DNA from: Utricularia gibba | Taxonomy: Eukaryota > Streptophyta > Magnoliopsida > Lamiales > Lentibulariaceae | Assembly (NCBI GenBank): GCA_002189035.1 | Contig: CM007989.1 | Span: 4,154,001-4,218,000, forward strand | Reading direction: 5' to 3' | Length of the DNA: 64,000 bases | The notes under the pieces: generated by a model | Told to the model about the DNA's origin: nothing | Database searches by the model: none | Seen by the model: only the letters and a program-made list of their open reading frames with translations | Program-made: the position numbers and the translations under genes | Shown here: positions 6,877 through 31,836 of the stretch, piece after piece | How positions within the stretch are numbered: position 1 is the stretch's first letter | How the letters are laid out: each line of letters starts with the position of its first letter

Positions 6877-7427
6877 GACCTCAGCAATAACATCAATAGA
6901 TTCGATGGCCACAGAGGCTCTCATTCAGGAAGTCCTTGCTGCTCTTAAAGTAGCAACTTCTTCGGCCACTACATCTCAGTCTGATATTCCATCACCTTAC
7001 AAGGTGCTCCCCAACGACACAAATGATGTCACTCTCACCACTCCACCTCTATCCCTCCTAAACTATGCACAATGGTCTCGAAATGTTCTTCGTGCTCTTC
7101 GCATTCGAGGAAAAGCAAGCTTTGTCAACGGAGAACTTGAACAGCCAAAGACCACTGATGCGCTCTACAAACAATGGGAGAAATGCAACGACTTGATCCT
7201 TGGGTGGCTTCACCGATGCATTGAACCAAATATCTCCATCACAGTCGCTCAATGCGACACAGCAAGGGAAATGTGGTTGATGTTGCAGGAAAGATTCACA
7301 CACTCAGATGAAGACCGTGTAGCCAACCTACAACACGAAATTGAGACACTAGTTCAAGGTAACCTTTCTATTGATCAGTTATTTAGCAAACTAACAACAT
7401 TGTGGCAGGAATATGATGCGTCCAGAC

Positions 7428-10400
7428 AAGTGGTTTAAAAGACAGACCGGGTCGCCCAGTCCGACCGGAAAAAACGAGAACCGGTCTCTGGATCAGTTCC
7501 GTTTCAATAAAAGCTAGCAAATTAGGGCTTTTGTTGTGACAAAAAAGAAGCGGGATTCTCTATTTCTACTCCTCTTTCCTGGGATTTGTGAGATCTTTGA
7601 TTCAATTCTTTTTTTGTGGTTTTCAACGAACAATCATAATGGATATTGATGCTTCTACAACTGATATACATTTTTTGAATACTTATTTTTGAATTTTTGT
7701 TTAAATGGTTGAACTTGAATCTTGTTAAGCTTTTGTTTATTTTAAGTAAATTAATGTAAATGCATTTCAATTTGAAGTTCCAATCCTGTGTTATTCCACT
7801 TTATATTAGCAATTTAACATTAAATTTAGTTTGTATCTAATTACTTTATGCGGTATTTTTATTCATGGTGGTTTAGTTTTTTTATTTTATTATTATTGTT
7901 GCAGAATGATTTGTTTGTTGTGTGTATTTATGTTGGATGATTTTACTCAAGATTATTGAATGTGCTATAAGTTTATGGTTGGTGAAAAATTATTACTGAA
8001 AATATTTATTCATTATTGGTTTCTTTTTTTTACAATAGGAATGGATTTGATGCTTCTTCAACTGGTGTTGATGAGCATAAAAAAAGAGGCAAATATGATA
8101 TTGCTTGGTAATATACAATTCTTTCAACTAGTAATGGAAAAAAAAAGATTGACTTGTTTATTATGTGATCTTAGTTATGCTGATGTAGGGATTAATTGGA
8201 TGAAAAAGCATTTAGCTGGAGAAGTTGGTGATATAGCACCTTGCAAATGAGCTTGATTTTGATGATAATGTAAGCCTTGAATCTCCTACAGCAGATAGTG
8301 GAAAGAATGAAGCAACAGTTTCAATTTTTTTAAGCCAAGAAAGATAAGGAAGAAATTTGTGATCATTAAATTAAGCAATGATGATAGTTCACAAAAAACC
8401 TTAGAAAGTTTTTGGACAAGTGAAGCAGCAGTGAGAAAGGCAAAACTTGAAATCGCTAAGTTTTTATATAATTCATGCATACCATTGAGTGTGGTCAAAT
8501 TACGTCATTTTCGTACTATGATTGAAGATGCAATTAAACTAGGTCATTCTTTCACCATGCCAAGTTATTATGAGGTACGCATTCCTTTGCTTAGAGATGC
8601 TAAGAGAGAAATTGGATTATGGATAGATAGTATTAAATTTGTGTGGACAGAAACTGGTCGCACAATAATGGTAGATGGATGGACTAATATGTCTCATAGA
8701 ACTTTGATTAACGTTTTGATTTATTGTCTTCATGGAACTATCTTTTATCGCTCAATTGATGCTTCTAGAATTTCTAAGATTGCCAACAAATTGTTTTTTC
8801 TTGTTCATGAAGGTTATTAATTGGGTTGGAGTGGAAAATGTAGTGCATGTGGTGACATGCTGCAAATTATGTAGCAGCTGCAAGAATGATAGAAGATTAT
8901 TATCCAACGATTTCATGGTCTCTTTGTGCAGCCCATTATTTGAATTTGATACTAAAAGATATGAGCGAACTGAAGAGTACACGATCAATTATTGATAAAG
9001 CATCAGTTTATTCTAGGTTCATCTATGGTCATATTGTATTGCTGAATTGGTTGAGAAATCGTAAGGGGTGGACAGAAATTCTTAGATCTTGTGCTACACG
9101 ATTTGGTACAACTTTCATTGCTCTTGAAATTTTTATAAACATAAGCATGAGTTGCAAGCTTTAGCAACATCTAAGGATTTTCTATCATCAAAACTGTCTA
9201 AAGATGCTGCTAGAGAATTTTTCTGTTCAGTAGTGCTTGATCGTAAATTTTGGAATGATTGCTTAATTGTTGTAAAGATCATGGAACCATTAATTCATCT
9301 TCTGAAAATAGTAGATGGGGATAAAAAACCATCTATGGGTTATGTTTATGAAGGGATGCACAAAGCTAGTGAAGGAATTAAGGCAATTTTTTTGATTAAA
9401 CATAAACTTTATGCACCTTATTTGGAAATCGCGAACAAAAGATGACATTCTAAACTAAGAAAAAAATTACATGCTACAACTTATTGGCTCAACCCTGCAT
9501 TTCAGTATAACAAAGATCATTCACAAAGATTAAAGAGTGTGAAGATGAAGTGATAGATGTAATTGCAAGTAAAAGATTAGGTGATCGTATTATTTATTTG
9601 GATGAAATGACTATGTTCTCTGAAAGTGTAGGAAGCTTTGGAAAGCCTCTTGCACTTGAAGCAAGCACAAGGCAAAAACCAGATATTTTTTATTCTAATT
9701 AAAACTTTGATTCCCATATGATTTATGCAAGATATTAAATTATTTATAGCAATTATATTTTACAGATCAATAATGGAAGCATTTTGGTTCAAGCACCCCA
9801 GGACTTCAACATTTAGCTATCAAAATATTGGGGCAAACAGGTTCTTCTTTTGGTTGTGAAAGGAATTGGAGTATTTTTTAACATATTCATACTAAGAAGA
9901 GAAATAAATTAGAACATCGTCGTTTAAATGATTTGGTTTTTGTGCACTATAACCAACGTCTACAAGAGAGGTAATTTTATTGTTTAATGATTTTTTATCA
10001 CATTTTTGTAATCTGATTTTTTTTTATCACATTTTTCTTTTTTTTTAGGTGGAGTGATGAGGTTAAAGCCTTTGAACCAATAGATCTTGATTTTATTGCT
10101 AAATTTGATATATGGATAGTAGAAGAGGAGGAAAAAAGTGGAAAAATATGGATAGGTGAAACTGAAATACAACATGAAAAGAATTTTCATTTTATTGATG
10201 ACAATGTAGAATGTGTTTATCAAGAATTGCAACCTCTTATGGTAGATGAAGAAAATATTACACCTATTTCCATTTTAGGTAGCTTGGATTTATCATCATT
10301 TACATATTTAACAATTGAAGATGTTACTTTGGAGCTTGGATATGAGGGCAACGATGAAGAGACACAAGCTTAAAATTTCATTTAATGCTTTCATTTGATT

Positions 10401-12684: not shown

Positions 12685-14450
12685 GTGGCAGCACCACAAG
12701 ATGACACATCAAATGATGTCATTCAAGAAGCCACGCCCACAGAAACTCCTGCGAACGACACCACAAGACGATCGAGAAACCGCCGTCTCCCTAATTATCT
12801 TAGCATTTATTCCCATACTGTAAATGACCCACAAGCTAATCATAACACTCGTTTTCCTCTACATGCATATTTGGAAATCCAACAGCTTGGAAGTCGATAT
12901 TCCAACTTCGTAAAAAATATGACAATCATCTCAGTAGAACCAAAAACTTATGTGGAAGCAATGGTACTCCCAGAATGGATTGAGCCCATGGAAAAAGAAA
13001 TTGCAACAATTGAAGCTAATAAAACATGGTAAGTTGTTGAGGTATCCAAGGATACCCACGTTATTGGATGTAGGTGGATTTACAAAAAATAAAATTCTCT
13101 CTGATGGCATCTTGGAAAGACGAAAAGCTAGACTGGTGGCCAGGAGATTCAGCCAAGTTCAAGGTTTTGATTATGAAGAAACCTTCAGCCCTGTGGCAAA
13201 ACAAACAACCGTATGCACATTCTTTGCCTTGGCAGCAGCAAATTCCTGGGTGTTATGGCAACTCGACATTGACAACACATTCCTCAATGGAGATCTAGAT
13301 AAATGCATATACATGGAGATTCCTCAAGGATACCATCACAATCGCCAACCTGGACAAGGAGGAAAACTGGTATGCAAGCTTAGAAAATCTCTATATGACC
13401 TAAAACAGTCTCCTAGATAGTGGAATTGCAAATTCACAGAAACAATACTTTAGTGAGGATGTGAACAGAGCCTAGCAGACTCTTCTCTATTCACCAAATG
13501 CACCCTATCTGGAGAGTTCATCGCTCTATTGGTCTATATAGATGATATAATAATTGGAAGCTCATTCACCAAGCTCTTGGAATCCCTAGTCTGTTTCTTG
13601 AAAAAACAATTCAAGCTCAAGGATCTTGAACGTTCGAGATATTTTTTGGGGATAGAGATTGCCCATATCTCTCTATCAACGAAAATATGTTCTTGACCTT
13701 CTAAGCGACCATGGATTACTTGGGGCAAAACCAGCAGCAACACCTATAGACAGAACACATCAGCTGCACCAACGGGACTCCACACCACTAAGAGATCCAA
13801 CACCATACCGACAACTCATTGAGAAATTGATTTATTTAACTCTGATTAGACCGGACATCTTGTATGCAGTACAACAGCTTGCCTAGTACATGAGCAATCC
13901 AACAAATTTACACTCTATGACTGCATTGCGGGTACTCAGATATTTAAGGGTTATTGTATAAAACCTCACAACCATTACAACTTCTGGCTTATAGTGACAG
14001 TGATTGAGCCAAATGCCTGGATACCCGACGATCAATTACTGGAATGTGTATATTCCTTGGAGACAGTCCTATAAGCTGGAAATCAAAATGCCAGAAGTGG
14101 CTCGTAGTTCCACATAAGCTGAATACAGAGCAATTGCATCTACAACTTGCGAAGTAATATGGATTCTATAGTTGCTTAAATCTTTTAGAATTGAGCATCC
14201 CACTAAACTGTCACTTTGATGTGACAACAAGTTTGCTATTCAAATAGCAAAGAATCCTATATTGCATGAACGAACAAAACATTTCCAATTAGATTGACAC
14301 TTTGTACGTGAAAATGTTGTTGCAGGACTAATCTAGCTGGTTCATATTGGGACACAAAATCAGATTGATGGCATTCTCACAAAGGGACTCAGTAAGGATT
14401 AACATTCATATCTACTAAGCAAGATGAGCATGTCCAATATACATGCTCCT
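12685..14450 (+). pseudogene. copia reverse transcriptase and RNase H region, decayed
   Basis: The copia RT start motif is present (YVEAMVLPEWIEPMEKE, then RKARLVARRFSQVQGFDYEE and FSPVAKQTT). It is followed by QLDIDNTFLNGDL and the catalytic YIDD box at 13535-13546 (VYIDDIIIGSS). RNase H remnants (AYSDSD, then [21 protein letters not shown]-like) lie at about 13985-14100. In-frame stops occur at about 13030, 13420 and later, so the region is non-coding now. Confidence 0.87.
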
Positions 14451-14967: not shown

Positions 14968-15230
14968 TAAGGCTGTGTTTGGTAGTAGTTTTAGTAATAC
15001 TGGTATAATTTATACCAGATAAAAATTATCCCTCCTATAAGTACACATTATGTTTGGCAGTATGGAATTTATGAGTTGAATTAAAATATCCCATGACTTG
15101 TTTGGTAGACATATATTGGATTACTTTTTACAGATTTTGAACAAATACATTTTTACCCTTCTACATTTTTTTTATCTGGGTAGGGTTCTTGGCTTCGGCT
15201 CTTCAATCATTCTCCAATTTTCTGTGCGAA

Positions 15231-16299
15231 ATGAGCATGTCCCACACAGATAACAACAATGGTCAATCAAAATCGAAACGCGGGTGGAGCGTTGAAGAAG
15301 AACGTCTTCTTGTTATCGCTTTCAAGGATATTATTGACAATGGGTGGAAGAGTGAAAATGGTTTTAGAAAGGGGTATTATGTAGCTCTTGAGAAGATGAT
15401 GAAGAAACGCAAAACCCACTTCAACTTTGACAGCTATTCCACACATTTCTTCGAAAATCAAGATATGGAAAAAGGAATACTACATGATCATGGACATTCT
15501 TTCTCGATCGGGAACATGGTGGAATAGCACAACAAGGATGTTAGAAGCACCAGACAAGATATGGGATGAATTGGTATTTTCTAGGAAAGTTCCTACTTTT
15601 ATTAGTTTGTGACTATTAAGAATCCATTCTGCTAATTATTTGGGAATTGTTGCTGATATGAATTAGTTTAATCATATGGTTTTTGTAATTGTTTTAGAAT
15701 CCATTTTATGGGAGTTCTTACATTTTTTATATGTTACTTGTTGTAAGTGTCTGAGAAAAGCTATCACGAGTGTTGAATTTTGTTTTTAGGGAACCATCAA
15801 TGGACTGAAAGGCTTGAGAAATAAGGTATGGCCTTTTTATGAAGATTGTTTAGAGATTTTTGGAACAGATCGTGCTACCGGGAAAGATGAAGTTGCTCAT
15901 GAGGAAGCTGCCAACCATGCATCCACTGAAGTCGAAGGCAATGACTATCATGTCAATATGAACAATGAACCAGAATCACCAACAACTCAAATACCAGCTT
16001 TTGTGCCAATTTCAGAAGCCAAATCATATGTTCTTAATGATGATGCTGCTGAGAACAATGTAGGGTCACACAAGAGGAAATTTAACAAGAGACAAAGAGA
16101 GGATGAAGTTATTGGAGAACTTATTGGAGAATTAAAAGCAATGCGTAAAGGATCAGATGCTATCACTGAACTTATACAACAAAAATTGATGGCACTTGTT
16201 GATGCTCAATTAAAGCAACAAAATGAGGCTATATCCATCCTTCGTAAAATGGACATGTTACTGACACCCATTCAGATTGTGCATGTGTCTCATGTATAG
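15231..16299 (+). pseudogene. Harbinger ORF1, Myb/SANT-like protein, frameshifted
   Basis: ORF1 proteins of Harbinger elements bind the terminal repeats and help import the transposase. From ATG 15231 the protein contains the SANT-like start GWSVEEERLLVIAFKDIIDN and then NGFRKGYYVALEKMM. At a run of A near 15410-15413 the frame shifts by one; the expected continuation (IPHISSKIKIWKKEYYMIMD) is in the next frame at 15427-15612. After an intron ending at about 15789 the second exon reads NKVWPFYEDCLEIFGTDRATG and finishes with a Lys-rich and helical tail, stopping at 16299. The neighbouring minus-strand transposase fits the pairing. Confidence 0.8.
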
Positions 16300-16605
16300 T
16301 CTTACACAACTCTCATCATTTTTAATATCCCTATTGACATATAATTAAATCAGTTTTCTTATGTTCAACTTGTGTTGAAGACGCCTGCGGACGTGCAATT
16401 GTTTTTGTGCCTCTCAGATGATGAGCGCAGAGCATTGGTCCAACAACTTGTCAGGGAATAGGTTTTATCAATGGTGCAATATTTTTTTGGGCAGCATCAT
16501 CCGTTGGTGCTCTTCAAGACCACGGAAAGGATCAATTCATCTGACTTCTTACATGCACCATAGACATTATATAGTTTTGAAATATCATAGTTTTGAGCTC
16601 CAAAA

Positions 16606-16628
16606 ATATATATATATATATATATATA
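16606..16628. repeat. (TA)n microsatellite
   Basis: An uninterrupted run of about 11 TA units lies inside the Harbinger element. Confidence 0.9.
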
Positions 16629-17094
16629 GAGCTGTCCATATAGATAACAACTTCCCCTAGTTCAAGTAATGTATCATCCATTATCTTTTTGTCTTCTTCA
16701 GTTCACAAACACCTTGACTTCTAAAACTAAAACATAATAACAGGTTCGCATGAAAATTCATAAAAGTAGACCACACTTGCAGCATAACATCACCCGAAGA
16801 ATAATGAGTTGGATGTTATCATATTTTCTAAATTTTTGTTATTCTATTTTAGCATATAAATCTATTGAGTTATAGTTCAAGAAACAAGTGAACCTAATAT
16901 ATGTCTACATCAAAATTTAATGATTTATTTTTATGTGAATAATATACAACATATATTTCATTATCGAATAATTACATAAATTGGAATTTTTTTAATATCA
17001 ATTTTTTTTATTAATCTGTTTTACAATAAAAAACAATGTTCAACATAAACTTTGATTTATGTATTTAAATTCATGTATTAAATTATTTTATATT

Positions 17095-17690
17095 AACGCT
17101 ACCTACGAAATAAATATTCAACAATACACAAATGTATTGGACTCCTACCACATTACTTATTTCGTAGGTGCCATTAATATGGGATACACACATGCGTGGT
17201 TTATACACAATGCATAACCTATGTCCGTGTATTGGATTTCTACCAAATTACTTATTTCATAAGTAGTACTAATACAGGATACACATGGATAGAGGTGGGT
17301 TCGGTTCGAATCGGAACAATGGTTCGTACCGAAACGTTTGGATATATCTAGTTCCAGGCACCCACATGAGAAAAGGTGGGTGCCTGGAATTTGGTTGCAG
17401 ACTCATAAACACCCTCCTGAGGCACCCACATGAGAGAAGTGGGTGTCTGGAAAACTGTCACAAATACTCCTTCCCAAACACCCATATCAGAGAAGTGTGT
17501 GCCTGGAAATGATCTTACCTACTCTTCCTAGACACTCATACAATGCATTATTTTGTAGGTACCATCCAACTCTCTTTCCCGACACCCTTCCGAGGCACCC
17601 ACATGAGGGAAGTGGGTGCCTGGAAATGGTCTTACCCACTCTTCGTATACACCCACACAATATATTATTTTGTAGGATAGTGTGATAACA
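17095..17690. repeat. Hairpin minisatellite with inverted ends inside the Harbinger element
   Basis: The segment starts with CTACCTACGAAATAA and ends with the near reverse complement TTATTTTGTAGGATAG, and repeats TTATTTCGTAGG-like phrases internally. In the middle are tandem units of about 57-65 bp. At least four contain a perfect or near-perfect hairpin of the form AGGCACCCAC ... GTGGGTGCCT: 17354-17387, 17419-17450, 17476-17506 and 17592-17623. Two further units near 17529 and 17650 have only the left arm. It may be a small nested element; no target duplication was clear. Confidence 0.65.
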
Positions 17691-17947
17691 CCATTTTTAT
17701 TATGTTTTAATAAAGAACATATTTAAATTATTTATATTTTTAGTAAACATATGTCATATAATTATAAAAATATTTTTTTTAGTTGTTGCATCTCGCATAT
17801 TCTCGCGTGCTTAGAAATAAATATGATTTATAAAAATGCTGATAATAATCTTAAGTTCACTTTGCAACGACATGTTCTACCATGTTTAAAAATAACAAAT
17901 GTTCAATCTTGGATATGATAGTTAACAGAAACACAAAAAACGAATGC

Positions 17948-19156
17948 TTATCTATTCATATACTGATTCCATATAATTGTTGCAAGCTCATCACGCCATG
18001 TACACCACCCTGGAGAGGTTTCAACAGCTGTTATGAACTCACTAGTCCCTTGCTCAACAAATTTAGTAAAATTCTCTGACACTTCAGCTTCCAACGGATC
18101 ATATGCCATATTCATTCTTACAAAATTGTGTAATAAAGCACAAGCAAGAATAATGCGACTTTGTGTTTGAACTGGATAGTAGGATGCTGACTGAAGAATG
18201 GCCCATCGAGTCTTTAAAATTCCCCATGCTCTCTCAATTACATTTCTCGCTGAGGCGTGACGCATGTTAAACAACTCTTTCGCATTTTGAGGTGCTGAAT
18301 TTCCAGTACCTCATTCTTTTAAATGATAGCGTACATTCTGATATGGAGCTAGGAAGCCATCACAATTGTTGTAGCCATTATCGTATAGATAATAGCAACT
18401 TGCAATCACAACATGCATTTGTATAGTAAAATGTTTCTGAAAACAGCCTGAAACAATGGAAATTCATGCATGGAAAAACCTTTAAAAATCTTACTAACTT
18501 CACAACTAACCTCTATGTACTCGTAGACCACCAATATCCTTCAACAAAGCACTTTTAAGTATACGGCTGTCAGCAGCCGATCCTTCCCAACCAGCAAGCA
18601 TGTAAATAAAATTCATATTTTGATCACACACACCCAAGACATTGAAGGCTATTGTACCTTTTCGGGTTCGATATTTTGACTTATCACACTCAGGCACCCG
18701 TGCCTCAATATAGGACCCATCTAAAGCACCTAAACAATTCTAAACATATTACAAACATTCAACAATTAATAGTTATTAAGATAAACATTGCATAAGCAAA
18801 AAATGAAATAGTATCTCAAAGAAACAGAACCTTGTTGTGGCACTGGTAGTAGTAACAACTTATCATGCAAGCATAAAATAGCTACAAAAATGGCCTTGAA
18901 GTGACAGCTAATTGTCCAAGTCGATCTTTTTGAAGGATGACTTTTGAATTCACATCTTCTTATGATGGGCTAAAGTACCTAAGAAAATACAGACTTTCTC
19001 ACTGATAGTTATATACTTCGAGTCACGAAGCTCTGCATAATCACGAAGTAGACAACACAATCGTCCAAAGACATCTCGATTCATCCTCAATTCCTCCAAA
19101 GCTGTGTTGTTCATGTTGCTAACTAATTCATGGAGATGTTCAATTTGTCTTGGCAT
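17948..19156 (-). pseudogene. Harbinger DDE transposase (DDE_Tnp_4 type), decayed
   Basis: On the minus strand, reading down from 19156, the N-terminal part is MPRQIEHLHELVSNMNNTAL and FGRLCCLLRDYAELRDSKYI. After a frameshift near 18955-18965 the helix-turn-helix-like part continues (RSTWTISCHFKAIFVAIL). An intron precedes the catalytic core: LDGSYIEARVPECDKSKYRT (first Asp, about 18720), then AGWEGSAADSRILKSAL (second Asp, about 18590). A further block contains DNGYNNCDGFLAPYQ near 18370, and the last block is SARNVIERAWGILKTRWAIL with the catalytic Glu near 18240. The stop is at 17948. The domain order is complete, but the frame is broken. Confidence 0.86.
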
Positions 19157-21567: not shown

Positions 21568-21572
21568 ATCAA

Positions 21573-22104
21573 TGTTATGGGTGAAATCGGTATCCGGTGA
21601 GAGGCCGATTTTAGGTGATAGGCGCGGTCGGGAATGCCACACTTAGTCACCTTCTTCACGTCTAGTACGATTAAAATAGAAGTGAACATGGATTTTTTAC
21701 GTGGAAACCGCCAGAGAGCGGAAAAACCACAGAGCTACCGGAGCTCGCCGGAAAAGAGTTTCACTAGGTGGACGTCGCGAAAAAGGAGAATACAACTTGA
21801 AGAAATCTTTTTTTGAGTCCAACCGCTTTCTTGTCATCATTCCGTCTATTTATAGGAGAGCTCACTCTGACCGAATTCTGGTGTCTGCAAACATCGGTTG
21901 CTTTCTGCTCCTACTATGCAATCTCGCTTTTCAGATATCGGCCGCCTGTTATGCCGTAATTCGGCCGCTTTTCAGGCTGTGTCATATGCCCATACCTGTC
22001 AGATTTCTGACAGACGTCGATCTGTCGTCTGGCATTATCCCCTTGAGATCTCTTTTGGCAGCCTTTTAGGAACCGATTACCCTTGGCCGATTTTTCCCTT
22101 ATCA
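21573..22104 (-). repeat. 3' LTR (left copy) of the gypsy element
   Basis: It runs from TGTTATGGG to CCCTTATCA on the plus strand. A purine tract, seen in reverse complement as CAAAGGGGCTGAA at 22105-22117, adjoins it and would be the polypurine tract. Confidence 0.93.
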
Positions 22105-22314
22105 TTCAGCCCCTTTGATTCGCCGATTCTAGCCCTTTTCGGGGTAAATCGGGGGATCAGAACTACTACGATACCGATTCTTGAGTTGCTGCTTCCCCCG
22201 AATAGGCCACATGCCGTTCTCTACCACACGTCGGCTCGTTGGCACGCCACGTTTTTTCCTGCTCATTCTGGGTACCCCAAACGTCACGACGCTTCGTCTT
22301 CCTAACCTGTCCCG

Positions 22315-22322
22315 TATAAATA
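22315..22322 (+). promoter_or_regulatory. TATA-like box of the antisense gene in the gypsy element
   Basis: TATAAATA lies about 255 bp upstream of the antisense gene's ATG at 22578 and outside the LTR. Its position would give the antisense gene its own promoter. Function is inferred. Confidence 0.45.
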
Positions 22323-22577
22323 AGCGCCCTTCGCGTTAGTTCTTTCCTTTGCCCTTTCTGTTGCCTGCAAGAGTTTTGTGCCCTCCGTGCTCCGTCACAC
22401 TCGTCCGCCGCTCGATCATCGTGATATCCGTCGGAAAACGTCAATTTTCCAGGTATCATTCGGTTCTTTGTCTTTTCCGTTCGGTCTTCTGGGATTTTTG
22501 ACGGGTCCCCCTTGTCATTCTAAGTCCTTCCCCCGTCATAACTCCTACCTCGTTCTAGGGTTTTTGGCTTCTTTGAA

Positions 22578-24827
22578 AATGGGTAGGAGATCTAGTGAAC
22601 TAAACATCCCTTCCCTTCGCATTCGGTACTCAATCCCTGATGAGTACCAGCTTTCTCATGCTCGGGATACTGAAATCCCTTGGGGGTTGGTAAGGACCCC
22701 CTGCCTCCGTTCAGTCTCCTAATTCCACTTGCCTATTTCGAAAGCGGTTTACGCTTCTCTCTTCACCCTTTAATAGTCCGTTTTCTCTATACTTTTGCAA
22801 TTCCGATTTACTGTCTTGCCCCGAATTCCATATTCTGCTTTACCACTTTCCTTTTCTATTCAGCCGGTATGGATCCGGCTATGACTTTGGTAGACTTCTG
22901 TCATCTCTTCAAGATAGCCGTTCGTAAAGCTAAGTCCCCGATGGATGGCCGATCTCACTTTCAATTCCGCCGATTTGAAGATAACCCCAACTTTTTTGTT
23001 AAAGCCCCCGACACCCACCATGATTGGTGGTCTACTTTCGTTTGGATAGCTCCCCCTTTGGGTTCTCGGTGGAACTTCCCAGTCGATCCCCCAACTCCTT
23101 TCAGGATCAAAATCTTGGGTGCGTATCGGTCTTCTTCCGAATCTCGCGAAGTCCTTTATGAGAGGCTTAGTTGGGGCTCAGTTCGGTATGAGTCTCATGC
23201 CTTGATGTTCTCGGGTGAGTCGTTGAAAAGATCAGGTATTATCGGTCGTTCCCGAGACCTCCATTGGCCCGATATCATTCCTTTCGATGGCACTGATCCG
23301 AGGAGCCTTCCTCTTAGCCCCTCTTCACCCTTCCCTCTTGTTCCGGCTTCACCTCCAATTCCCCCACCTGTTCAAACCGGGGCCCCCAAGAAAAAGAAGA
23401 GGGTTAAGACAGTTGCGCACAAACCCTCAAAGAGGCAGAGAGGTAGTCGGGTTCAGCTTTCCCGAGTCTCAGAATCGGCACTATGCCTTATTGCTTTTCC
23501 TTCTTTCGTTTTCAGCTGAAGAGATGGTTCGGAGAAGCTCTCTGGAAGATTCGATGATGGTGCGGTTCTCCGCCGAGATGCAGAGGGCGCAAGAACCCGA
23601 GGATCCCTCTCCTGCACCAGTCTATCTCCTATTTAATAGTTACTGCGAATTCCCGATTATAACCCCCCCCCCCCCTTTTTTTTTGGTTTTTCTTTCAGGC
23701 TGATATGATTGGAGCTCAGTTGGATGCCGCTGATCCTTCCTCGGGGGAAGATCAAGTAGTGGAAGTCTCCGAGGCCCCGGAGTTGACTTCCCGTCCTTCA
23801 GCCGGAAAAGGGAAAGAGAAACTTCCTCCATCACCCGATCTCAGCGATACTCCTATTCTCGATGCAAGATTCTTTTCGGCTGGAGCTTCAACATCGGCTC
23901 TTCCAATCGAGTTACACGGGGATTCTGCCCTCGTAGAAGTAAGGGACAACCCGGTGCTTCCTCTACCCTCAGTTCCAGCTGAACTAAGAGGAATCCTGGA
24001 TAGAGCTATGTCTATTACCTCGGGTGTTCAGCCGGAGACGGTACTTGAAGGGATCTGGCAGGTACGTATCCCGTTTCCTCTTCTAAATTCTAATTAGTCG
24101 GTCCTTGACTAGAGATATTCTTTCAGGCTCTGACTCTTGGGTGGGGAATGGTTAGAGAGATTGGCTCTCAATCGGAGGAAGTCTCTCGACTTCGAGCCCA
24201 AGTTGTGGCTCAGAGCGCCCAGATAAAGTTGTTGGAGGAGGAGGGGAGTTCGCTGAAAACCGTTTTAGGGAAGTGCAGCCGCCAGGAGGAAGAACTGCAA
24301 AATGTGATCGAGGAAATGGGAAAGGCGGTTGACGACGCTCAATCAGAGAGAGAGGGCTTCAAAGTCCGATTTGAGGAGGCAGGAGCGGAGTTAGAGCATG
24401 CCAGGGCCGCATTTCAGCATTGGAGGCCGAATTACTTGATCAACAAGCATCTCGGCAGGTTCTTCTGGATGACTTTGTCAATTCGGTCTGTTTTGCCGAA
24501 CTCTCCGATATCTATGCAGGAGATTTAATCGGCTTACTTCTATACCGTCAGAGACGACAGTTCAGCCGGGAATTTGGGCTTTCAATCATGGATCCGTGCT
24601 TCGACAGGATAAACCCCCTGACGAAGGATGAGAACATGCTTGATGTTATCGCGGATACCTTCCAGGCCCCGGAGTTCGGGTTCGAAGCTGATCGGGAGCG
24701 ACTGATTTCGCTAATTCAGGCGAGGATAGGGCGAGAGAATGACGCCAAGTTGAGGGCAAGGATGAAACGGCATACCGGTTCCTCTGCCAATCCTCCCGAT
24801 AATCCCCCATCCCCTCCTGTATTTTAG
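22578..24827 (+). CDS. Antisense, intron-containing gene of the gypsy element (putative gypsy-type transposon domain plus coiled coil)
   Basis: This gene is on the strand opposite to gag-pol, between integrase and the 3' LTR. It starts MGRRSSELNIPSLRIRYSIP at 22578. It continues, after a one-base frame change in a G run near 22680-22690, with AYFESGLRFSLHPLIVRFL and LAPNSIFCF, which resembles the N-terminal region of the plant Transposase_28 (putative gypsy type transposon) family. Next come FHLFKIAVRKAK-type and WWSTFVWIAPPLGSRWNFPV segments, then a proline-rich, basic stretch (GAPKKKKRVKTVAHKPSKRQ). Likely introns: about 23445-23516, about 23621-23699, and 24061-24126, each with GT and a T-rich AG. 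The last exon is a long Glu/Gln-rich coiled coil (24148-24420), then after another one-base shift near 24405-24420 a C-terminal domain with FELSDIYAGDL-like sequence, stopping at 24827. Function unknown; family assignment moderate. The two frame changes mean this copy may be inactive. Confidence 0.65.
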
Positions 24828-25618
24828 TAGTTTTTGACTTGATGTTTTTCCCCCTACTGTGGGGCTTTTTTGATAATTTTGGTCTCCCGGTTCGGGATTT
24901 TCTTCTAATTTACTCTGTTTTTTTGCGCATCGCTTTTGCCTTTGGTGACGTTCACATTTCGGGGAAGCCCCGAGTTGGTTTTCTATGTCTATTACGTGCT
25001 TAGACTTGGAGATTCGCCTATGTTTTTATGATTCGGGGTGGATGCGTCCTCGCCAACCCTTTGATTGTGCTTTTTGATTTTAGTTTGCCTTAGTGTTTCC
25101 TCATGCGAGCTGAACCGCTGCTAGGGAAGTAGGCCGGAACCCCTCATGGGTTGAGCGACTTCCCCAATCCGAAAGGGCCCTCTTCTGGCCATACCCCATT
25201 GTTTTGAACATGGGGCGGATTTGTTTCGGGTGCTCTTGCCGCCTCGAGATTACGACAATAAGGTCAATACTTAAGGGCTTTTTGGGGCTTACGCGTGCGA
25301 TTTATATAAACCGGTGCCCGAATCGTACCAGGGCTTATTCTTGCTATTGATGCCTGGGTTGGTAGATCGCATATATATATCATGGGAGACCCCGAGTCGA
25401 CTTGATGTATCCCACAGGGGATCCCGATTTATGAGATTCGTCTGGGCTTACGTTACTTGGCCAGAGCTTTAAATCTTTGATGGTCTGCCTGGGCTTACGC
25501 AATTCGGCCAGGGCTTGTGTTTTGTTTTCCCATCTCCATTTCGGAGGAATTTATAGGTGCATGAGTGCTTTGGGGGAGAGAATGCCGAATCCTGTGACAG
25601 AGATTGATATTGAGTCGG
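24828..25618. other. Non-coding part of the gypsy element between antisense gene and integrase
   Basis: About 790 bp with repeated GGGCTTACG and GGCCAGGGCTT phrases, without a supported ORF on either strand. It lies between two convergent genes, the antisense gene and integrase, and probably holds their 3' ends. Confidence 0.55.
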
Positions 25619-26763
25619 TTAGGCGTAGAACTTCCTTAGATGGGATGCGTTCCACGACCTTGGGAGTTCCACGCCATCTAATTGTTCCAGGCGATATGCT
25701 CCTTTTCCGATCACCCTTGAAATCCGATAAGGGCCTTCCCAGTTGCGGTCTAATTTCCTAATGTGTCTTTGCGGTTGGACGCTTCGGAGCACCAAATCTC
25801 CCTCATGGAATTCCCTTAGGGATACCGAGTTGTTGTAACTTTTCTCCGTTCTTCTCTGATAAGCACCTAGTCGGCTATAGATGCTTCGTCGCTTCTCTTC
25901 CAACAGCTCCAATTCAAGTTTTCGGAGTTTAGTATTCTCTTCTTCATTATAATGCTCTACCCGGTAGCTCTTCAAGGTCAGTTCGATAGGGCATATGGCT
26001 TCTGAACCGTAAACCAATAAGAATGGGGACTCTTCCGTGGTGGTTTGAGGGGTAGTATGATATGACCACAGTAACTCATCTAAGCGATCTGCCCACGACC
26101 CCCAAAATCTTCGAGCTTAGTCTTCATACCTAATCGGAGCGTTCGGTTCATTACCTCTATGAGGCCATTGCTCTGCGGGTGATATACCGAGGTGAAGTTG
26201 TGCTTGACCGAATACTTATCCAGGAATGCATCCGTTTTTCCTCCGGCGAATTGAGTTATGTTATCAGTCACTAGTTCTCGAGGGATTCCAAACCAGATGA
26301 AGATGTTTTTCCACAGAAATCGGATAACGGTCTCCTTTGAAATCTTTGCCACGGCTTCAGCCTCTACCCACTTGGAAAAATACTCGACACCCACGATGAC
26401 GAATTTCCTTTGACCCGAGGTGTGGGGAAAAGGCCCCATTATATCCACCCCCCATCGGTCGAAGGGGCAGGAGAGTGGGAGAGAGGTTAGTTTGCTTACT
26501 GGTTTCCTCGGTATACTTGCATGGTATTGGCACACTTTGCACTTCTTCACCATATCGGTAATATCCTGCTTCATAGTTGGTCAGTAGTACCCGGTTCTTA
26601 GAACTTTCCGGCATAAGGATCGTATTCCTATATGGCTGCCGCATTCACCCTCATGTAGATCGGTTATGAGTTCTTGAGAATGCTTTGCCCCGATACACCT
26701 CAATAAGGGTCCATCTAAGGATTTGCGATAGAGAATTCCATTCACTAACGTATACCTCTTCAC
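25619..26763 (-). pseudogene. gypsy integrase
   Basis: Reading down from 26763: the HHCC zinc-binding region (HEGECGSHIGIRSL, then KKCKVCQ), then the catalytic core with WGVDIMGPFP (first Asp), LVTDNITQFAG (second Asp) and SNGLIEVMNRTL (Glu). The C-terminal part (WEGPYRISRVIGKGAYRLEQ, ending ASHLRKFYA) stops at 25619. The usual E-N of the last catalytic motif reads E-V here. The region is split into three ORFs by frame breaks near 26575 and between 26017 and 26080. The integrase inserts cDNA into the genome. Confidence 0.88.
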
Positions 26764-26775
26764 GCTAGTCTCTAA

Positions 26776-27375
26776 CTATCGGGCATTCGGCTTATCAGGT
26801 GGGGTTTTCTCATTTTGTAAATACCGGATGTAGGGCATCGTCCAGTCATCAAGGGGACTCAGTTGTGGAGAGATATCGTTTCCCGGTTGTTGTGTGATAT
26901 GATTTACGGCTCGTAGGCTCACCGAAGGTCGGTCCCGCAACCGAATTGTCACACTTCCTTCCCTTAACTCGTGAAACCCTGCTGCGAATCGGGCGAGGCT
27001 ATCTGCGGACCCATTTTTCTCACGTGCTACGTGTGATAGGGTGAACTCCTTGAAGGTTTTAGCCAAGTCCTTCACCTGGGCACGGTACAGAGCCATGAGG
27101 GAGTCATGGGTTTCGTATTCTCCCGAAAACTGCCCTTGCACAAGTCGCGAATCGGTGTAAACATCGAGTTCTGCCACTCCTAGCTCCTTGGCAATTTTCA
27201 TTCCCTCAATCAGGGCTTCATATTCGGCCACATTGTTAGAGGCAGGGAATAAGAATTTCACCGTAATATAAATATGCTCTCCTTCTCGGGTCTTAATGTC
27301 TATTCCTCCTCCGGCACCGTTGTATGTTGAGCCATCCACTTGCATAGCCATCGGTCGTTGGCTTCCATGAAACAA
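26776..27375 (-). pseudogene. Second (archaeal-type) RNase H of the gypsy element
   Basis: The ORF has the archaeal-type RNase H signature: VDGSTYNGAGGG (first Asp), NNVAEYEALIEGMKIAKELG (Glu), DVYTDSRLVQGQ (second Asp) and HVAREKNGSADSLARFA (last His/Asp region). A second RNase H of this kind downstream of the normal one marks the Tat lineage. Known only as a degrading activity on RNA-DNA hybrids; its specific role in these elements is unclear. Confidence 0.85.
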
Positions 27376-27523
27376 TCTATAGGCCAGGTCATTTCGACCA
27401 CAAAATCAGCAAGAGGTTGGGCCTTGATTGTTGTTCTCGACTTAAACTCAATATCCATTATGCTTAATTCAACTGCCCATTTGGCAACCCTTCCGGAAAT
27501 CTCTGGACGAGACAGGATGTTCT

Positions 27524-28566
27524 TCAGAGGCTGATTGTGAATACCACAATGTGCCGATCTTGGAAATATGACCTCAATTTGGTGGCTGCCATCTTTAGAG
27601 CCAAGATGAATTTCTCTGTCACTGTATAGCGGGTTTCGGCCGGTAACAAAACTTTGCTTACATAATACACCGGCAAATGACTATTTGCCGAGATGGTTGT
27701 CAAGACTGCATTGACTGCGACGAGCGATATAGACAGATATAGTCCTAAGGGCTCCCCTGCTTTCGGAGCCACAAGAAGCAGGAGTGATGAGAGGTATTCC
27801 TTGAGTTTCTCAAAAGCAATCTGGCAATCCTCGTTCCATTCTAAAGTACTTCCCTTTCGCAAGACCTTGAAGAAGGATGCCGACTTATCGGCTGACTGAG
27901 ATATGAAACGGCTGAGGGCAGCCAATTTACCCGTGAGGCTCTGGTATTCCTTGATTGTCCTCGAAGGTTGCATTTCGCATATTGCCTTAATCTTCTCGGG
28001 TCAGCCTCGATTCCTCTCTCCGATATGTAATACCCAAGGAATTTTCCACTTTGCACCCCGAAACAACATTTCAATGGGTTGAGCTTTAACCCGTATGACC
28101 GACATAAAGAGAAACACGAATCCAAATACGCTAAATGGTCTTCTTCATTCATAGATTTCACGATCATATCGTCCACATACACCTCCATTGAGGTACTGAT
28201 TTCAGAAGAGAATATTTTATTTACCAACCTCTGGTAAGTCGCCCCAACGTTCTTCAATCCGAAAGGCATTGCCACGTAGCAGTAAACTCCATCCTTAGTG
28301 TAGAAGGTGGTTTTCGGTTGGTCTTTCTCGGCCACGAAAATTTGATGATACCCCGAATAGGCATCCATGGTGCTAAGAAATCGGGATCCGGCAATGGCGT
28401 CCACTAGCTTGTCGATCTTTGGCAAAGGATAAGGGTCCCTTTCGCAGCAGGCGTTGAGGTCGGTGAAGTCAATGCACATCCTCCATTTTCCCCCGGGCTT
28501 CAGGACGACGACCGGGTTGGCTACCCATTCGGAGTAATGGATCTCCTTCACATAACCAGCTTCCAA
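27524..28566 (-). pseudogene. gypsy reverse transcriptase and first RNase H
   Basis: The RT has the gypsy motif series: VVLKPGGKWRMCIDFTDLN, PYPLPKIDKLVDAIAG, STMDAYSGYHQI, MPFGLKNVGATYQRL and the catalytic VYVDDMIVKS. The thumb and connection include GLKLNPLKCCFGVQSGKFLG. The RT ORF stops at 27841; the RNase H part continues in an overlapping ORF in another frame (27524-27973; SLVAVNAVLTTISA, VYYVSKVLLPAETRYT), so one frameshift lies near 27950. The copy is not translatable as one polyprotein. Confidence 0.9.
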
Positions 28567-29171
28567 GAGCTCTCTTGTTTTTTCTTTGATAATTTGGCAC
28601 TTTTCCTCTGAGAAATGTCGTTGCTTCTGCCGAATCGGTTTTGCCCCGGGTAGGTATCAATGTGATGTTCGGCGACGGATCGATCAATGCCTACAAAATC
28701 CGCAGCAGTCCAGGAAAAAATATCGGTGTTCTTCATCAAAAGTTCAACTAACCTTTTCTCGAATCTAGCGTCTAGATTGGCACCGACGCGGGTGGCTTTC
28801 TGCGCATCTTCTGGTATTAGTTGCATCGACTTGTACCCTACTGGTTCCATCGCTTGTCTAGGGGGTTCCTTTTCTACCATCATTACTCTCGACTTCTTCA
28901 TGCAGGGGTCCCGACAAGAAGATACATAACAGGATCGGGCGGTGGATTGGTCGATACCCATCGTGCAAATGCCCTTCGATGTTGGGAATTTGATTTTCAA
29001 ATGCACAGTGGAGGATAACATACCGAATTGGTTGATGCCGGGTCGCCCGAGGATGATGTTGTACGAGATCTCTGAATCCAGGATTAAGAATTCCAACCTT
29101 TCGGTTCGGCTCCGCCCTGCCACTCCGAATGTTACGGGCAGGGTTATTTTCCCGATAGTTTGCACGGCCCG

Positions 29172-29516
29172 CTAGTCGAATGCGTATAACTCCATGCGCA
29201 CATGACGAATATTTCCCTCGTTAGATGATGCCAGTAACTCGGCCACTTCCTTCTTCATGATGTTGCATGAGGATCCTTGATCGACAAGAATCCTCCTTAC
29301 CTTGGTGCTCCCACACATTCCTGACACCACCAAGGGCTCATCTCTCGCGGCTGGGCCAACCGGGTCATCTCTGCTGGAGATGCTGATCTCTTCCTTTTCC
29401 CAAGCAGCTTTCTCAGTCGGATCATTTCCGATTTCGAAAACTTCTCTTCTGACTTCATCCAAATATCTCTTCCTTTCCTTTCCGGACACATCCATCTCGG
29501 TTCCTCCAGATATCAT
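29172..29516 (-). pseudogene. gypsy aspartic protease region
   Basis: The active-site segment RRILVDQGSSCNIM matches the plant gypsy protease pattern (V-D-x-G-S-S). A following ORF at 28548-29165 carries the rest of the protease and the spacer into RT (SYNIILGRPGINQFG). Frame breaks separate it from gag and RT. Confidence 0.82.
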
Positions 29517-31041
29517 ATGGATTTCCCGAATATAGGGGGACTACCTTGCATTTGATGGGCACTCCGTGAACTTTCCGGTATGTCTTGTCCTTCTCCAAGA
29601 TTCGGTTCCCTGTTGGCTCGCGAGTTCGCCATCCCCGGTTTCGGAGAGAATTTCAGATATCGGTTCTCCTCGTTCCCCGTTCGCTCGTTACGTCCTCTTT
29701 TCCGGTCCATCATTGATGTGGGGTTCCGCATCGCGTTGTTCATCCCTCGACCAGCATGATACTGCTCAATCATCCTCTTCATCAATCGGCAGTGAGCAGT
29801 ATCATGCCCGGTGGTCTTGTGTATTTCGCAGCAGGCATTTGTTCTGGTTGGTTCCACCTGATATACTTCACGGCACTTATTCGGCCTGGGTCCCCGGTTA
29901 AGTTGGGTCTCCTGCTGTGGGACTGGACGAATCTCCATGCGGCTTTTCATCTCGGCCCTGAGGTCGTCATCCACTCGGATGTACTTCATGATTTTCCTTA
30001 GCAATTCTCCGAGATTCTTTGGTGGGGACTTCGATAGGCTATGTCCCAATTTCGACGTTCCTAAGGCCCGCTTCATTATTTCCACCCTTTCTTTTAAATC
30101 CAATTGGACATCTTGCGCCAAGCAGTTGAATCGATCGATGAATCTTCGCAAGCTCTCTTTTCGGTGGTCATACCGAATAGAGTATAGTGATGCCTTCGAA
30201 GGTGCTTCAATGTTAACAGCGTATCGGGTAGTGAAGAGCAGTATTAATTCCCGATAAGATGCCACGCTGCATGGTTCCAACTGTTTAAACCAAGTCTTCG
30301 CTCCTTTCTGGAGCGAGCAAGCAAACAGCTTACACTTCATGGCCTCTGAATGTCGAACTGTGGACATCCTCATATCGAAGTCGGTTACATGCGATATGGG
30401 GTCCCCTTTTTCGTCATACGTGGGTAATCCGTCCGGGACCCTAAATCCTCTCTCGGGCTCTTCTCCGACTAAATCGTCCGAGAAAGGGTCAAAATGTAGC
30501 ATTGTGGTTCCAGCTGCTCCCTCAACTCCACTCTTCAAGGCCAAAGCAATATCGATCAAAACATCTCCTCTTCCAGTGGATACGTTCTGATCGAAAACGT
30601 CCCTGAAGCCTCTATCCTCTCTTCTTCCTGCCAACGTCCGCTTGTCGATAAACCTTTTCCTTTCGCGGATTTGGTCTAACTCTCTTTTCAACTCTTTTTC
30701 TCTTTCTTCCAAGATTTTGCTAGTCATGTTCTCCCTGTCAGTTCCTGGCTCATACACGACTTGGTTGCGCCTCTTTCTCCGCAGCATTTCCTCCTCGGTT
30801 TCGGATTCAGTCTCCGTATCTGGGGGTACTCCGAAATAAGAGGTTGCTTCCCTGTTTGTGGTGCAGTTTCAGGTGTTCTCTCCTAGGCGTTGGAGTTGAG
30901 ACCTGAAGGTTCCCGGAGGTCGGTAAGGATTTCCGTTAGTAGGGCCTTCAGTTGCTCCCTGCTAGTGATCATAAGGCCGGGATCTCGAGCGTCGGCACTT
31001 CTGTCATGAGCCGAGTCGGTGGCTGTGCTATTTTCCGCCAT
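29513..31041 (-). pseudogene. gypsy gag
   Basis: The likely start is ATG 31041 (MAENSTATDSAHDRS). A stop near 30887 and a one-base shift near 30835 break the N-terminal part; the main frame then runs from 30787 to 29513. It carries the retrotransposon gag region (HVTDFDMRMSTVRHSEAMKC, KTWFKQLEPCSVASYREL, HRKESLRRFIDRFN) and a zinc knuckle-like CEIHKTTGHDTAHC, in which the second cysteine is histidine as in many Tat gags. Gag forms the particle that packages element RNA. Confidence 0.88.
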
Positions 31042-31093
31042 GACTCGTGATTAGCGAGTGGCTCCTGTGGGTTTAATGGGACTGTGGAACGTA

Positions 31094-31111
31094 GCCCCAC
31101 GGTGGGCGCCA
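31094..31111 (-). other. Candidate primer-binding site of the gypsy element
   Basis: On the minus strand, four bases inside the 5' LTR, the sequence TGGCGCCCACCGTGGGGC is found. TGGCGCC at this position is common in Tat-lineage elements as the tRNA primer site; I cannot name the tRNA with certainty. Confidence 0.7.
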
Positions 31112-31115
31112 AATA

Positions 31116-31647
31116 TGTTATGGGTGAAATCGGTATTCGGTGAGAGGCCGATTTTAGGTGATAGGCGTGGTCGGGAATGCCACACTTAGTCACCTTCTTC
31201 ACGTCTAGTACGATTAAAATAGAAGTGAACATGGATTTTTTACGTGGAAACCGCCGGAGAGCGGAAAAACCACGGAGCTACCGGAGCTCGCCGGAAAAGA
31301 GTTTCACTAGGTGGAGGTCGCGAAAAAGGAGAATACAATTTGAAGAAATCTTTTTTTGAGTCCAACCCCTTTCTTGTCATCATTCCGTCTATTTATAGGA
31401 GAGCTCACTCTAACCGAATTCTAGTGTCTGCAAACATTGGTTGCTTTCTGCTCCTGCTATACGATCTCGCTTTTCAAATATCGGCCGCCTGTTATGCCGT
31501 AATTCGGCCGCTTATCAGGCTGTGTCATATGGCCATACCTGTCAAATTTCTGACAGACGTCGATCTGTCGTCTGGCATTATCCCCTTGGGATCTCTTTTG
31601 GCAGCCTTTTAGGAACCGATTACCCTTGGCCGATTTTTCCCTTATCA
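31116..31647 (-). repeat. 5' LTR (right copy) of the gypsy element
   Basis: A 532-bp direct repeat of 21573-22104 without gaps, followed by target duplicate ATCAA at 31648-31652. Confidence 0.93.
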
Positions 31648-31836
31648 ATCAAAAAATTTTAAAAACTCAAATTTAGAACGGACAATTTCGTTTGTTATTT
31701 TATGTTTTTTTTTCTAGTCAGTTGTGTCTCGCAAAAAAACCACGGTACTGTACTGTCCAAAAGACGAGGCAAAATATTAACTCACGCGAGTATGTGCGTG
31801 AGGTTGCTCTCTCAAAAAAATTCGACAGGTTACTTT

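Follow-up and report, generated by a model that had tools for sequence, protein, structure and literature searches.

Does the DNA between the integrase and the 3' LTR of a Ty3/gypsy retrotransposon in Utricularia gibba encode, on the strand opposite to gag-pol, a spliced protein belonging to the element itself, and if so, what might that protein do? An initial annotation of a 64,000-nucleotide stretch of this genome (contig CM007989.1, positions 4,154,001 to 4,218,000; hereafter "the window", the numbering of which is used throughout) had placed at 22315–24827, inside a Tat-type element, an antisense gene of at least four exons with its own TATA-like box, a basic Pro-rich linker, a long coiled coil and an acidic C-terminal domain. 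It had also taken this gene for more than a chance reading frame, noted two one-base frame changes, and proposed an HMM search for Transposase_28 and a dN/dS comparison with gag-pol as checks.

The host element is laid out as follows, all features lying on the minus strand, i.e., that of gag-pol:

21573–31651 (−): Ty3/gypsy element of Tat/Retand layout, delimited by its LTR pair and containing Pfam matches for gag, RT, RH, RVT_3 and integrase
21573–22108 (−): 3' LTR, 536 bp, TG...CA on the element strand, with 19 differences from the 5' LTR
25619–26574 (−): integrase, core and C-terminal part (PF00665, E 2e-13)
26776–27375 (−): second, archaeal-type RNase H (RVT_3) between RH and integrase (PF13456, E 2e-18)
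27524–27973 (−): RNase H of the reverse transcriptase (PF17919, E 2e-19)
27841–28566 (−): reverse transcriptase (PF00078, E 5e-30)
29513–30787 (−): gag (PF03732, E 6e-8)
31116–31651 (−): 5' LTR, 536 bp, followed in element orientation by the PBS-like TGGCGCCCACCGTGGGG

The domain order gag-RT-RH-INT is that of Ty3/gypsy elements, with no Pfam match for a protease. A second RNase H of archaeal type (aRH) is a mark of the Tat clade (PMC6317226), and we place the element in that clade because RVT_3 lies between RH and integrase, in agreement with the earlier assignment. Its internal region spans 9.0 kb, of which the 3.5 kb between pol and the 3' LTR (22109–25618; Retand range, 2.9–6.6 kb) carry the antisense gene. 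Both LTRs are 96.5% alike (K2P 0.036), which at an assumed 1.3e-8 substitutions per site per year would mean an insertion about 1.4 million years ago. No clean target-site duplication flanks the element (ATCAA at 21568–21572 vs. AAAAA at 31652–31656); the duplication may have been lost through decay, or recombination between elements may have produced this copy. Elsewhere in the window, positions 12685–13420 and 15189–18274 resemble by eye a copia pol fragment and a PIF/Harbinger-type remnant (SANT-like protein, DDE fragment).

Thirty-six copies of the antisense stretch from the same genome were aligned with the window, and 12 more diverged loci (L091–L102) were added, giving about 48 in total, mostly decayed and as low as ~45% in protein identity. 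Between the integrase (25619) and the 3' LTR (22108), these define on the plus strand a gene of four exons and three introns:

22315–22322 (+): TATA box TATAAATA, 264 nt upstream of the ATG, present in most copies
22579–23442 (+): exon 1, from the ATG at 22579; one base lost near 22681–22704 in the window copy
22731–22916 (+): Transposase_28 domain (PF04195) within exon 1; 20.5 bits, E 6e-4, below cut-off
23388–23441 (+): bipartite basic motif KKKKRVKTVAHKPSKRQR (KKKKRVKxxxHKPSKRQR), a likely nuclear localisation signal, retained by almost every in-frame copy in every family
23443–23515 (+): intron 1, 73 nt, phase 1, GT/AG conserved
23516–23619 (+): exon 2
23620–23698 (+): intron 2, 79 nt, phase 0
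23699–24061 (+): exon 3, acidic and fastest evolving
24062–24126 (+): intron 3, 65 nt, phase 0
24127–24827 (+): exon 4, its stop codon ending at 24827; one base lost near 24406–24422 in the window copy
24169–24411 (+): coiled coil at the start of exon 4; heptad test p 0.0006 (score reached by 0.06% of shuffles), weak Pfam coiled-coil matches
24423–24824 (+): conserved C-terminal domain of about 110 residues, 70–88% identical between the window copy and three other copies

The limits of the initial annotation thus coincide with the first base of TATAAATA and the last base of the stop codon, and its exon number, introns and TATA box are borne out; TATAAATA is also kept, at −280 to −289, in a second promoter type that is about 60–65% identical to the first. 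Exon lengths in siblings of 865, 104, 363 and 702 nt amount to 678 codons including the stop, and the reading frame is maintained across every intron. Exons 1 and 4 of the window copy measure 864 and 701 nt, and the two frame changes are accordingly one-base losses in that copy. The start was placed at ATG 22579 because the 5'UTR carries no coding signal. As the joined frame is interrupted in every copy of the set (the best sibling has a single in-frame stop), the alignment does not show a currently expressed protein. No long opposing minus-strand ORF runs over the gene, the maximum being 117 codons from stop to stop. An alternative first intron at 22690–22863 was rejected: its GT/AG is not conserved, it is coding, and it contains most of the Transposase_28 match. 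A Pfam search on wrongly joined exons gave no match.

Coding was gauged from codon periodicity, i.e., parsimony changes per column among copies sharing over 60% identity with the window, assessed by chi-square, with exact counts that depend on one tree. Periodicity was strong in the main part of exon 1 (p = 6.6e-56), exon 2 (5.5e-5), exon 3 (1e-12) and both parts of exon 4 (1.4e-22 and 2.7e-14); changes at third codon positions were roughly double those at either other position in exons 1, 2 and 4a, with a clear excess in exons 3 and 4b as well. The introns (p = 0.41, 0.63 and 0.83) and the 5'UTR (0.18) were flat. Internal branches showed a sharper contrast (in exon 1, for instance, 0.50/0.37/1.27 changes per column). 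Between clearly diverged copies, dN/dS of the antisense exons was 0.08–0.29, compared with 0.04–0.13 for RT in most pairs in which RT had also diverged; the latter comparison covers 13 copies with an aligned RT, many others having no RT at the fixed offset owing to indels or truncation. Purifying selection on the antisense gene, of the same kind as in pol, is thereby supported, and recombination cannot yield codon periodicity or pairwise dN/dS values of this sort. Judged from these sequence patterns, the antisense gene is a real gene of spliced type and not a chance reading frame, as had been surmised.

Its predicted product is composed of dissimilar parts. Transposase_28, sub-threshold in the window copy, scores 26.2–30.4 bits in several siblings (Pfam cut-off, 26.2) and has 149 matches in the genome; conservation of exon 1 extends beyond the Pfam model to about 23270, near residue 190 of the aligned exon 1 part. 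Exon 1 ends in the Pro-rich basic linker of the initial annotation (11 K/R, no D/E and 12 P in 47 aa), which varies among families, and in the basic motif, which is kept across them as K[KR]KRVK...[HQ]KPSK[RK] and suggests a bipartite nuclear localisation signal. The coiled coil likewise holds up, with no Pro in a stretch of 93 aa. The acidic character ascribed to the C-terminal domain stands in mild form only (22 D/E vs. 16 K/R in the last 134 aa); the acidic part is instead exon 3 (20 D/E vs. 8 K/R). The C-terminal domain has no Pfam or PDB match, PDB profile searches having returned chance-level hits only. Some of the best Transposase_28 hits (e.g., G000:C2:2203655; L103 4440–5232 with a downstream frame; L105 at about 7024, minus strand) adjoin an FCP1/NIF-type phosphatase-like frame (RKLLIFDMNGVLADIVY...); within 4–5 kb of these, no relatives of the window element's gag-pol are recognisable, possibly reflecting a non-LTR or host setting for the domain. 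Locus L103 also holds, at 7259–7913, a 35–54% identical homologue of exon 4 with no matching exon 1 at the usual distance, and this reads as a truncated or very diverged antisense gene.

The introns are conserved across diverged families. Splice dinucleotides GT and AG occur in nearly all of the 36 copies and change less than other intron columns (1.2 vs. 2.9 changes per column, p = 0.0005). At L091–L102, the gaps between exons, where flanking exons were found, measure about 70–74, 61–73 and 63–69 nt, bounded in nearly every case by GT/AG at unchanged positions and phases; intron positions and phases are thus common to families that are mostly 41–55% identical in protein. Precise intron loss was seen in no copy (deletions in two copies remove exon ends as well), which fits reverse transcription of the sense RNA alone. 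Intron lengths vary locally: intron 2 has a C run followed by a T run right before its 3' splice site (23660–23690), of variable length among copies, and the intron 3 gap in L047 reaches 238 nt through tandem duplication of part of intron 3 and the start of exon 4. The conserved splice sites, together with a TATA box shared by two promoter sequences that otherwise differ, speak for a spliced gene with expression of its own, splicing of its antisense RNA suggested by the conservation of the sites.

Identity profiles reveal that the copies are mosaics along the element. Locus L050/L086 is 90–97% identical to the window element from 24723 through integrase and RT (RT dS 0.078), and only about 51–70% identical from the LTR edge to 24400, with synonymous sites near or at saturation. 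L041 is of window type throughout exon 1 and switches thereafter to another type that lasts until about 24500. L038 and L040 begin with a different promoter, are closely related to the window type over exons 1–2, change to the other type between intron 2 and about 24500, and then return to the window type. Trees of exon 1, exons 3–4a and the end of exon 4 conflict with strong support; e.g., exon 1 places L041 in a group with the window (support 1.0), and exons 3–4a place it with L038, L040 and L050 (1.0). The antisense gene therefore recombines as cassettes, such that near-identical pol regions accompany anciently diverged antisense genes. Template switching between co-packaged RNAs, reported for plant elements according to PMC1950507, is the likely cause. 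This swapping between pol backbones suggests that the antisense gene works as a module.

A gene of this kind has been met before. Antisense Transposase_28 (TRP28) ORFs have been recorded in 97% of the recently active Retand clusters from flowering plants (Vicient 2025, PMC11963269), where the domain is predicted to bind DNA and 11 antisense Smc-like domains are listed beside TRP28. These ORFs (Retand of Silene and RIRE2 of rice included) match the window gene in their pol-3'LTR position, antisense orientation and PF04195 content; some Retand elements have a coiled-coil (Smc-like) antisense ORF alongside, and their dimensions are those of the window element. That survey, in which the word "intron" nowhere appears, called ORFs one by one with ORF Finder, whereas the window gene unites TRP28 in exon 1 with a coiled coil in exon 4. 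The antisense gene23 of maize Grande (Gomez-Orte 2013), as described in PMC7264820, likewise lies between pol and the 3' LTR, has its own promoter and encodes a nuclear protein, a likeness of description rather than of aligned sequences. According to a 2025 review (PMC12786077), plant LTR-retrotransposons generally lack introns, Ogre and EVADE being exceptions. These two share spliced RNA with the window element; however, their introns belong to the sense genomic RNA, where they control how gag/pol is expressed, whereas those described here lie in the antisense RNA only. Marker genes for detecting retrotransposition follow the same logic of intron orientation as the antisense gene, with the orientation exchanged. 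HTLV-type antisense genes (HBZ, APH-2) also start near the 3' LTR and encode nuclear proteins, an analogy only, with no sequence relation shown. HBZ also occurs in a spliced form. The antisense gene is thus of a known kind; its intron-bearing single-gene structure and cassette exchange are new as far as the literature consulted shows, a priority that is not certain.

Building on the observed gene anatomy, coding, purifying selection, intron conservation, domain and cassette-wise recombination, we propose the following. Host RNA polymerase II would transcribe the antisense gene from its own TATA promoter near the 3' LTR, opposite to gag-pol, and the host spliceosome would take out the three introns, all of them short. 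A protein of about 677 residues would result, comprising the Transposase_28 domain, the NLS-like basic motif, an acidic linker, the coiled coil and the conserved C-terminal domain; it would enter the nucleus and, probably as an oligomer, bind DNA or chromatin in a way that promotes expression or insertion of the element. Gag-pol genomic RNA would meanwhile carry the introns reverse-complemented and unspliced, to be copied into each new insertion. Since only the antisense RNA presents them as introns and it is the sense RNA that is reverse transcribed, they can persist. To this scheme as a whole, i.e., an independently transcribed nuclear accessory protein, we assign a probability of roughly 60%. 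Its parts differ in strength. The TATA box and analogy with the literature point to transcription of its own, and the basic motif to nuclear entry; that the protein is a regulated one, as in the initial annotation, is an inference. For a coiled-coil oligomer that binds DNA or chromatin and thereby favours the element's expression, the odds are about even. DNA binding and the step served by the protein are the least certain parts: purifying selection does not tell which step this is, and single-sequence AlphaFold2 models failed (pLDDT 37 for exon 1 and 49 for the C-terminal domain; not used for fold searches) and thus lend DNA binding no support here.

The main rival accepts the nuclear protein and has it act on the incoming DNA copy instead of on transcription, escorting the pre-integration complex into the nucleus or guiding integrase. 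Such a role was proposed in PMC7264820, and the NLS-like motif and coiled coil would suit it; a separate mRNA would be needed for it, and the gene has been swapped between elements with pol almost unchanged, so that no tight co-evolution with integrase is visible, both points weighing little in either direction. We regard this role as possible, at clearly lower odds than the accessory protein as proposed. Capture of a host gene by the window element's family in recent times strikes us as improbable. Introns and an own promoter do resemble a host gene, and Transposase_28 proteins are found in the same genome beside a phosphatase-like frame with no recognisable gag-pol nearby; however, the many families with saturated synonymous divergence make any capture ancient, and Transposase_28 is present in 97% of flowering-plant Retand clusters (PMC11963269).

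Two further explanations dispense with a functional protein. Convergent transcription could tune or silence the element through double-stranded RNA, with the antisense RNA itself being what matters; the gene does overlap the 3' part of the genomic RNA, and antisense transcripts of other elements act in this way (reviewed in PMC7264820 and PMC12786077). An RNA-only role nevertheless predicts neither codon periodicity with dN/dS of 0.08–0.29 in all exons nor conserved introns, which renders it very unlikely. Chance reading frames in a decaying element would account for the two frame changes and the below-threshold Pfam score of the window copy, yet codon periodicity already refutes them, and the dN/dS values and the introns conserved in diverged families also stand against them; we give this explanation next to no credence.

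The reading that we favour, an accessory gene of the element itself, may extend beyond this locus. Throughout Retand elements, the antisense ORFs annotated one by one as TRP28, Smc-like or unnamed are probably exons of one ancient, intron-bearing, host-spliced gene that is exchanged between families as promoter, N-terminal and C-terminal cassettes, such that one pol backbone can carry quite different versions. The four-exon structure explains why ORF searches fragment the gene. Plant retrotransposons have been known for decades to carry antisense genes, with no function assigned to these, and a gene model in which the start codon, the three introns, the conserved basic motif and a conserved C-terminal domain without a Pfam match are all fixed shows which protein to produce and assay, while diagnostic splice junctions would expose antisense transcription directly in existing RNA-seq. 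An element copied through RNA can thus retain introns for very long, provided that these lie on the strand that is not reverse transcribed.
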